64,000 bases of DNA from Alphaproteobacteria bacterium. GTDB taxonomy: Bacteria > Pseudomonadota > Alphaproteobacteria > UBA8366 > GCA-2717185. The position numbers were made by a program, and so were the translations under genes. Where the stretch lies: NCBI GenBank assembly GCA_040905865.1, contig JBBDQU010000061.1:1-64000 (forward strand), read 5' to 3'. Within the stretch, counting starts at the first letter, position 1; each line of letters starts with the position of its first letter. Below the pieces are notes generated by a model that searched no databases, was not told the DNA's origin, and saw only the letters and a list, made by a program, of their open reading frames with translations. Shown piece by piece: positions 6,880 to 9,977 of the stretch.

Positions 6880-8247
6880 ATGTCCGCACCGTCATCATCG
6901 GCCAGCAACCTGATTGCCGGAAAGGCAGAACTGGTCGCCGACCTCGAATCCGGCAACAAGCCGCCCGAAGCCTGGCGCATTGGCACCGAGCACGAGAAAT
7001 TCGTCTTCGACCTGAAGACGCTCCGCCCGCTGCCCTATGACGGCCGGCCCGGTATCGGCGCGCTGCTCAACGGTCTTGAACGCTACGGCTGGGATCCGGT
7101 CCGGGAAGGCGGCAATACCATCGCGCTGAAACGCAGCGACGGTTCCTCGATTTCGCTGGAGCCGGGCGGCCAGTTCGAACTGTCCGGCGCCCCGCTGGAA
7201 ACCCTGCACCAGACCTGCGCCGAAGTCGGCGAGCACCTGACCCAGGTCAAGGCCGTCTGCGCCGAAATGGACGCGGGCGTGATGGGGATCGGCTTCAATC
7301 CGAAATGGCGGCGCGAGGATGTTTCCTGGATGCCCAAGGGCCGTTACAAGATCATGCGCGATTACATGCCGAAAAAAGGCAGTCTCGGTCACGACATGAT
7401 GCTGCGCACCTGCACGGTACAGGTGAACCTGGACTACCGGTCCGAAGCCGACATGGTGAAAAAGATGCGTGTCGCCGTCGCGCTGCAGCCGGTGGCGACG
7501 GCGCTGTTCGCCGATTCACCCTTCACCGAAGGCAAGCCGAACGGGTTCCTGAGCTATCGCAGCCACATCTGGACCGACACGGACCCGGACCGATGCGGCA
7601 TGCTGCCGTTCATTTTCGAGGATGGCTTCGGGTTCGAACGCTGGGTCGACTACATCCTCGACGTGCCGATGTATTTCATTTATCGCAACGGCAGGTACAA
7701 CGATGTCAGCGGGCTGTCCTTCCGGGACTACATGGCCGGCAGACTGCCCGGGCACGAAGGCGAACTGCCGACCATGGGCGACTGGACCGACCATATGACA
7801 ACGGCCTTCCCCGAAGTGCGGCTGAAGAAATTTATCGAAATGCGCGGCGCCGATGCGGGCCCGTGGCGCAACCTTTGCGCCCTGCCGGCGCTGTGGGTCG
7901 GGCTGCTGTACGACAATGCGGCGCTGGATGCGGCATGGGATCTGTGCAAGGACTGGACGGCGGAAGAGCGCGAAAAACTGCGCGGCGGCGTTCCGAGGAT
8001 GGGTCTGAAAACGCCGTTCCGCGGCGGCACGTTGCAGGACATCGCCCTGCGGACCATCGAGATCGCGCGGCACGGGCTGACGGCGCGAAGTCAACTGAAC
8101 GGTCGCGGCGACGACGAAAGCGGATTCCTGGACGTGATCGCTGAAATCGCCGAAAGCGGCGTGACCGAAGCGGAAATGGAACTCGCCCTGTATCACGGCG
8201 AATGGGGCGGCAATATCGACCGGCTGTTCGAGATGCGGGCATATTAG
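6880..8247 (+). CDS. gshA: Glutamate-cysteine ligase
   Basis: A 455-residue ATP-dependent ligase making gamma-glutamylcysteine, the first step of glutathione synthesis, of the GCS2 class shared by alphaproteobacteria and plants. Characteristic blocks are [13 protein letters not shown] near the N-terminus, [48 protein letters not shown] and [28 protein letters not shown]. The protein is cytosolic, and the expected length and ends are intact. The stop codon TAG at 8245-8247 overlaps the first bases of a palindromic repeat element. It is notable that a glutathione S-transferase gene follows. Confidence 0.95.
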
Positions 8248-8316: not shown

Positions 8317-8451
8317 CAGACGCTGTAGCGCGTGTCGGGACCGGCAAGTGTCAACACGCATGCTTTGACGCAATGGCGCGGAACGGTTACCGTTGGCGGC
8401 AGTAACTGGATATCAGTCCATCCCTGTCTCTAACCGGAGGAAATGCCGATT

Positions 8452-9147
8452 ATGGCGGATAAGTATCATCTGATCAGCTCCTACACCTGACCGTGGGTAC
8501 AGCGCGCCGTGATTGTTTTGCGTGCGAAAAAGGTCAAATTCGAAGTCACCTATATCAACCTGCAGCAACGCCCCGACTGGTTCATGGAAATCTCGCCGCG
8601 CGGCAAGGTTCCTGTCCTGAAGGTCAATGACGAGGTCCTGTTCGAATCGAACGCGATCGTCGAATACCTGGATGAGGTCGTGCCCCCTCGCCTCCATCCC
8701 GAAGACCCGATCAAGCGGGCGCGCAACCGGGCCTGGACGGATTACCTGCCGGATTTCACGCCGGCGCTGAGCGCCGTCTACTACACGAAATCGCGCAAGG
8801 TCACGGCGGAAGCCGTCAAGGCAGCCCCCGAGGCCCTCGCCAAGCTGGAAGTCGCCCTGAAGGAGCGCGGCAACAAGGGGCCCTATTTCAACGGCAAGAA
8901 GATATGTCTGGTCGATGCGGGCTATGCGCCGTTCTTCCAGCGATTCATGTATGTCGATACCAAACTGAAGACCGGACTGCTGGAACAGTTCCCGCTGGTC
9001 AAGGCCTGGGCCGATGCCCTGATGGCCAGCAGCGTCGTCAAGGGCTCCGTGGTCGATACCTTCTACGAGGAGTTCGAGAAGAACCTCAAGCGCCGGGGCT
9101 TCTGGGTTGCCGAACTGTTCGAGAAAAAGGCGGCGGCGGCGGAGTAG
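8452..9147 (+). CDS. Glutathione S-transferase-like protein with in-frame TGA (candidate selenocysteine) at codon 13
   Basis: Read from ATG 8452, which follows a strong ribosome-binding site (GGAGG at 8436-8440), the frame gives MADKYHLISSYT, then TGA at 8488-8490, then PWVQRAVIVLRAKK and a complete GST to 9147 (231 residues counting codon 13). In GSTs with a CPW catalytic motif the residue at this position is cysteine, so TGA falls exactly on the active-site residue. The thioredoxin-fold half contains ISPRGKVPVLKVNDEVLFESNAIVEYLDE with the usual cis-Pro and glutathione-contact Glu-Ser; an all-alpha C-terminal half follows. If TGA is read as selenocysteine this is a Sec-GST; if not, only a fragment from the GTG at 8509, lacking the catalytic segment, could be made. 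A point mutation or sequencing error cannot be excluded. Confidence 0.75.
8502..8525 (+). promoter_or_regulatory. Possible bacterial SECIS hairpin
   Basis: A six-base-pair stem starts 11 bases after the in-frame TGA: GCGCGC (8502-8507) pairs with GCGTGC (8520-8525) through one G-U pair, closing a 12-base loop (8508-8519) whose second base is G. Bacterial SECIS elements lie within the coding region just downstream of the UGA, in small stem-loops with a G near the start of the loop, so position and form agree. The stem is short and could occur by chance in GC-rich DNA. Confidence 0.4.
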
Positions 9148-9170: not shown

Positions 9171-9284
9171 AGGCATTTGCCGCATTAAATATGCATGACT
9201 GTCCCCTGTTTGGGGGACTGGCTCCCGGGTCCGCGCGCGCTATCAAACGATCATCGGACCACGAACAAACCGGAGCCATGCCGC

Positions 9285-9977
9285 ATGACCCCCGCATCTA
9301 CCGCCCTTTACGCCGCTGTATCGCATGACTTTCGTGACATGGGGGGCAGTCAGGCGTCCGATATCGGGAAAACGGTCAGATCGACCGATATCACCGCCGT
9401 CGACAGCCGCATTTCCCCGCCGGACCGCGCCAGCCGCAACGGGCACAAGGGTGGCGTGCTGTGGCTGACGGGCCTTCCGGGTTCCGGTAAATCCACGCTG
9501 GCCGTCGAACTGGAGCGGCGGCTCTTCAAGGCCGGATACAATGCCTATATGCTGGACGGCGACAATATCCGCTACGGCCTGTCATCGGATCTGGGCTTTT
9601 CACCGGAAGACCGGGCCGAAAACATCCGCCGGGTCGGCGAAGTCGCGGCCCTGTTCGCCAATGCGGGTTTCATCGTGATCACCGCCTTTATCTCTCCCTA
9701 CAAGGAAGACCGCGACCAGGCGCGCAGGGCCGCCGGCGACAATTTCCATGAGATTTTCGTCAAGGCGGACCTGTCCGTCTGCGAATCGCGCGATCCCAAG
9801 GGGCTCTACGGCAAGGCGCGACGGGGCGAAATACCGGATTTCACCGGCATTTCGGCGCCATACGAAGAACCCGGGAATCCGGATTTCACCATCGACACCG
9901 CCGCCGCCGATATCGATGCGTCGGCGACGAGCCTGACGGAATTCGTCGCCGCGAAATTCACCCAGTGGATGACCTGA
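9285..9977 (+). CDS. cysC: Adenylylsulfate (APS) kinase
   Basis: A 230-residue ATP-dependent kinase converting APS to PAPS. The P-loop GLPGSGKST sits near residues 62-70, followed by MLDGDNIRYGLSSDLGFS, RRVGEVAALFANAG and FISPYKEDRDQAR, all diagnostic for CysC. The C-terminal half has KGLYGKARRGEIPDFTGI and the APYE segment that binds APS. An N-terminal extension of about 55 residues precedes the kinase core, a little longer than typical stand-alone CysC; no sulfurylase domain is fused. The ATG at 9285 with CGGAG at 9271-9275 is preferred over the longer frame from 9195. No cysDN genes are adjacent, so it may serve sulfation reactions rather than assimilation. Confidence 0.92.
   Translation: MTPASTALYAAVSHDFRDMGGSQASDIGKTVRSTDITAVDSRISPPDRASRNGHKGGVLWLTGLPGSGKSTLAVELERRLFKAGYNAYMLDGDNIRYGLSSDLGFSPEDRAENIRRVGEVAALFANAGFIVITAFISPYKEDRDQARRAAGDNFHEIFVKADLSVCESRDPKGLYGKARRGEIPDFTGISAPYEEPGNPDFTIDTAAADIDASATSLTEFVAAKFTQWMT

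Follow-up and report, generated by a model that had tools for sequence, protein, structure and literature searches.

A glutathione S-transferase-like gene of an alphaproteobacterium with an in-frame TGA that very probably encodes selenocysteine

The 64,000-nucleotide stretch of alphaproteobacterial DNA analysed here (the window) carries on its forward strand a gene for a glutathione S-transferase (GST)-like protein of 231 amino acids (positions 8452–9147, stop codon TAG at 9145–9147), recognised from its reading frame, its Pfam matches and its homologues. The frame is open throughout apart from one in-frame TGA, which forms codon 13 (8488–8490). The best explanation is that the gene encodes a GST-like bacterial selenoprotein, in which UGA at codon 13 is read as selenocysteine (Sec13) under the direction of a selenocysteine insertion sequence (SECIS) element, and whose most likely role is that of a redox enzyme that depends on glutathione. 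We give this reading a probability of about 95%.

A GGAGG ribosome-binding site at 8436–8440, on the same strand, lies 11 nt before ATG 8452, and a purine-rich stretch precedes the start in most homologues as well. An alternative in-frame ATG at 8443 is spaced just 2 nt from the GGAGG. An earlier sequence-only reading of this DNA had proposed the ribosome site, a frame running through one TGA into an otherwise intact GST, and a gene that ordinary calling would begin at GTG 8509; all three points are borne out. The mechanical list of open reading frames does begin the gene at GTG 8509, and ordinary calling thus cuts it short and removes the active site.

Every one of the 26 close homologues has TGA at codon 13. 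Each comes from a different alphaproteobacterial genome, and together the 26 genomes span seven families. Eighteen of the homologues (at least 60% identity, the window's own copy included) were found among 144 related genomes; each has a single TGA at codon 13, and a second TGA counted in one genome (G137) is the normal stop. A class-wide sample of 385 genomes supplied the other eight, while a 398-genome phylum sample searched at 1e-45 held no further TGA homologue and a plasmid search at 1e-40 gave no match to the gene. The 26 proteins diverge by as much as about 45% from that of the window, and the frame is otherwise unbroken in each; because all of them have TGA at the same codon, its position is beyond chance. 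On either side of the TGA the amino acid sequence is conserved although the choice of codons varies (Thr12, for example, is ACC, ACT or ACG); codons 7–12, immediately 5′ of the TGA, combine conservation at the protein level with free synonymous change. Homologues lacking this upstream segment had been named beforehand as a finding that would speak against read-through; the segment is kept. The TGA could instead reflect a pseudogene or a sequencing error that damaged TGC or TGT at 8488–8490. One base change would be enough for this, and no result of the analysis favours it; the recurrence of TGA at codon 13 in 26 separate assemblies, with the frame otherwise intact, refutes it and leaves it a negligible probability.

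The relatives that lack the TGA indicate what the codon stands for. The seven nearest of them have cysteine in a CPW context at this site (a TGC codon in some, read from the translation in the rest), and CPY or CPF is found in relatives further removed; cysteine is the only replacement residue found at the Sec13 site among the relatives examined. In a maximum-likelihood tree of 48 proteins, the 26 Sec proteins form one clade (100/98), the seven Cys proteins are its sister group, and the others fall outside. Because Sec was entered as C when the tree was built, the separation of the Sec from the Cys proteins owes nothing to codon 13. The exchange of Cys and Sec at codon 13, which the sequence-only reading had suggested looking for, is present and clean on the tree. 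A single change of state suffices to explain it, most simply one Cys-to-Sec event.

The nearest Cys forms (L037–L039 and L068–L071) all come from SelB-bearing genomes, and Cys and Sec versions thus persist side by side among Sec-decoding alphaproteobacteria. Loss of the decoding machinery is accordingly not what made these sister forms Cys proteins.

Examination of the nucleotides 3′ of the TGA highlights a putative bacterial SECIS hairpin on the forward strand at 8502–8525, in which 8502–8507 would pair with 8520–8525 around a loop at 8508–8519. The 6-bp stem begins 11 nt after the TGA; it is complete in 20 of the 26 sequences and has at least one broken pair in the other six, and in L031, L034, L035, L036 and L064 alternative pairings enclose nearly the same loop. 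The stem top and apical loop contain the segment GCCGTGAT (8506–8513, forward strand), which is identical in 26 of 26 sequences and was defined as a motif before eight of them were found. The apical loop contains a G and its motif is conserved. The published definition of bacterial SECIS elements is loose and asks for a small, G-containing apical loop (PMC1088965); atypical elements have also been described (PMC9312934). The synonymous sites of codons 19 and 20 show no variation across the 26 sequences. Across the 26 sequences, 39 columns hold an invariant amino acid with a choice of four or six codons. The four that vary least are codons 19, 20, 24 and 18, and all of them lie within the hairpin, a placement with p of about 2e-4. 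Arg24 is CGT in 24 of the 26, while conserved Arg columns outside the hairpin favour CGG or CGC. At position 20, all seven Cys sister proteins have Ala rather than Val. The codon-level conservation within the hairpin, together with Ala at 20 in the Cys sisters, argues for selection on the RNA.

The earlier proposal of a SECIS-like hairpin 11 bases after the TGA is upheld in part. The stem at 8502 and the nucleotide conservation support it, but the folding energy is unremarkable: compared with synonymous recodings (codon shuffle, 18 sequences), the hairpin shows no excess stability (mean z 0.04). No Rfam model matches the hairpin, RNAalifold on 18 sequences gives no convincing common stem, and a search of the 26 sequences for compensatory changes on both sides of the stem found none. 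We consider a SECIS element within the coding sequence just 3′ of the TGA likely on the sequence evidence, and its boundaries may be those of the 8502–8525 stem.

The same nucleotides bear on a second alternative, in which translation really ends at the TGA and a truncated GST starts at the internal GTG 8509 (codon 20). This GTG is invariant in 26 of 26 sequences, and the mechanical list begins there. However, no ribosome site precedes 8509, and the product would be without its first strand and catalytic residue. Codons 7–12 show the protein-level conservation described above. The codon before the GTG (GCC) likewise does not vary, an observation that an RNA element explains better than a start codon does, and the gene is almost wholly confined to SelB-bearing genomes. 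We therefore regard an internal start as very unlikely and prefer decoding of the TGA as selenocysteine.

The window genome encodes the machinery that such decoding would use. In this 4.37 Mb genome (G000, estimated to be 100% complete), a search for selA, selB, selC (tRNA-Sec) and selD, the first check suggested by the sequence-only reading, found all four. The tRNA-Sec has the anticodon TCA (68 bits), SelB (461 bits) and SelA (563 bits) are neighbours on contig C32, and contig C48 encodes SelD (300 bits). None of the three findings that the sequence-only reading had listed as speaking against it (TGC or TGT at 8488–8490, a genome lacking the selenocysteine machinery, homologues lacking the upstream segment) was thus borne out. 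Of the 26 Sec-GST genomes, 23 likewise have SelB; the remaining three are 88, 64 and 77% complete, and tRNA-Sec is still present in one of them. Within the class sample, SelB occurs in 11 of 12 Sec-GST genomes versus 44 of 373 others (p about 2e-9 by Fisher's test, with phylogeny left uncorrected), and restricting the comparison to near-complete genomes gives 11 of 11 versus 38 of 304, relatedness again ignored. These observations also weigh on the idea that the TGA is read through as another residue, such as Trp or Cys, by near-cognate suppression. Sec in this protein is deduced from sequence, which leaves room for such an idea, but the full Sec machinery, the strong co-occurrence of the gene with SelB, the use of Cys as the sole replacement in the relatives examined, and the RNA-level constraint 3′ of the TGA all point away from it, and we consider it extremely unlikely. 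Selenocysteine remains the preferred reading of codon 13.

Two further features of this genome concern its use of selenocysteine. Its tRNA-Sec gene (L009, 1501–1596) lies on contig C25 and selB (L049) on C32. The two are therefore not nested, unlike the placement of selC within selB that is reported for many alphaproteobacteria, according to the passages that cite Mukai 2021 in two reviews (PMC13188914, PMC9312934). Its two best formate dehydrogenase alpha subunits (L078, C84:33239-35290; L079, C24:38766-40274) contain no in-frame TGA and have Cys in the CHASSV or CHSTTV active-site motif, despite the full Sec machinery. Since both of these genes are Cys forms, other proteins such as Sec-GST would have to justify the use of selenocysteine here. 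It is tempting to speculate that members of the Sec-GST clade are a selenoenzyme of their own and contribute to the retention of the Sec machinery by these alphaproteobacteria, although we hold this to be rather unlikely.

The protein is clearly GST-like. The Pfam models GST_N_2, GST_N_3, GST_N, GST_C_2 and GST_C all match far above cut-off, with PF13409 the best match, and none of the NCBIfam GST equivalogs reaches its cut-off. KVP and FES motifs are invariant in the 26 sequences; they represent the glutathione-site motifs cis-Pro (VP) and Glu-Ser, whose role is established for the GST family. The best relatives of solved structure are Leishmania thiol-dependent reductase 1 (TDR1), pyrimidodiazepine synthase and omega-class GSTs. 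In the phmmer alignment, codon 13 falls on the CPF cysteine of human GSTO1 (residue 32 of chain 1eem_A), the known catalytic cysteine of that enzyme, in agreement with the earlier suggestion that the TGA stands at the catalytic Cys position. An AlphaFold2 model from four sequences reached a pLDDT of 41 and was discarded.

Taken together, these features suggest the following scheme. SelB and tRNA-Sec would decode UGA at codon 13 as selenocysteine, directed by the SECIS element just downstream within the coding sequence. In the N-terminal, thioredoxin-like GST domain, Sec would stand where the first helix begins, in place of the catalytic cysteine. The selenolate of Sec13 may then attack a disulfide (including a mixed disulfide with glutathione), a glutathione adduct, an electrophile or some other oxidised substrate, and glutathione would regenerate it. 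The most likely activity would thus be that of a thioltransferase, deglutathionylase or reductase, a redox enzyme of the Cys/omega type that depends on glutathione; its substrate and chemistry are predictions.

The neighbouring gene upstream on the same strand, at 6880–8247, is gshA, encoding glutamate-cysteine ligase (TIGR01436, 695 bits, over cut-off). Glutamate-cysteine ligase is the first enzyme of glutathione synthesis. The order rsmE, gshA, Sec-GST recurs in L016–L018, and gshA also adjoins the Sec-GST gene in L020, L021 and L029; in other families no gshA was found within flanks of up to 1.5 kb, which places the adjacency within the genus. The two genes may plausibly share a role in glutathione metabolism, but the case for this comes mainly from the protein family. 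Immediately 3′ of the Sec-GST gene, at 9279–9977, is a match to adenylyl-sulfate kinase (TIGR00455, above cut-off), which is seen in the window genome and in none of the relatives' loci examined.

GST-like selenoproteins have been recorded before, as the sequence-only reading had noted. GST was among 15 new selenoprotein families, with four sequences, in the Sargasso Sea survey of 2005 (PMC1088965), and the Global Ocean Sampling survey of 2008 contained 12 Sec-GST sequences (PMC2398784). Reviews of 2022 and 2026 list Sec-GST with the representatives PPR62222.1 and MEK9676863.1 and the domain PF13409 (PMC9312934, PMC13188914), and the later one describes the functions of nearly all such families as largely uncharacterised (PMC13188914). 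Our literature search for an experimentally tested function of Sec-GST returned nothing relevant. The alphaproteobacterial gene thus belongs, on good support, to a protein family first listed in 2005 and is not a new kind. One homologue (L018) comes from MarineAlpha10_Bin3, and the PPR accession prefix is used for proteins of marine metagenome-assembled genomes; the two would fit membership of PPR62222.1 in the same clade. What is added here to a family listed for twenty years is a set of whole-genome lineages, the Cys sister group, the SECIS footprint and the genus-level gshA neighbourhood. With whole genomes that carry the gene and the full machinery, a Cys sister clade and, in one genus, a gshA neighbour, an organism or a Sec/Cys enzyme pair can be chosen, and such a pair would let one ask what selenium adds to glutathione chemistry.

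Three known systems invite comparison. Human GSTO1 (omega class) and Leishmania TDR1 are among the best PDB matches, and GSTO1 has its CPF-motif Cys at the Sec13 position; both are eukaryotic and have Cys rather than Sec, with a CPF motif in contrast to UPW in Sec-GST. Closer are the GSTs of other alphaproteobacteria with Cys in a CPWV(Q/H)R motif, which form the sister clade at 48–52% full-length identity but differ in having Cys at 13 and Ala at 20, where Sec-GST has Val. The published Sec-GST-like family, compared here by Pfam and COG assignment, shares the GST fold (COG0625; PF13409), Sec in place of Cys, the lack of a UxxC motif, the bacterial position of the putative SECIS element and widespread Cys homologues. 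Its published entries are metagenomic sequences or single accessions, whereas here the gene is placed in whole genomes, together with its clade, its Cys sister group and the selenocysteine machinery.
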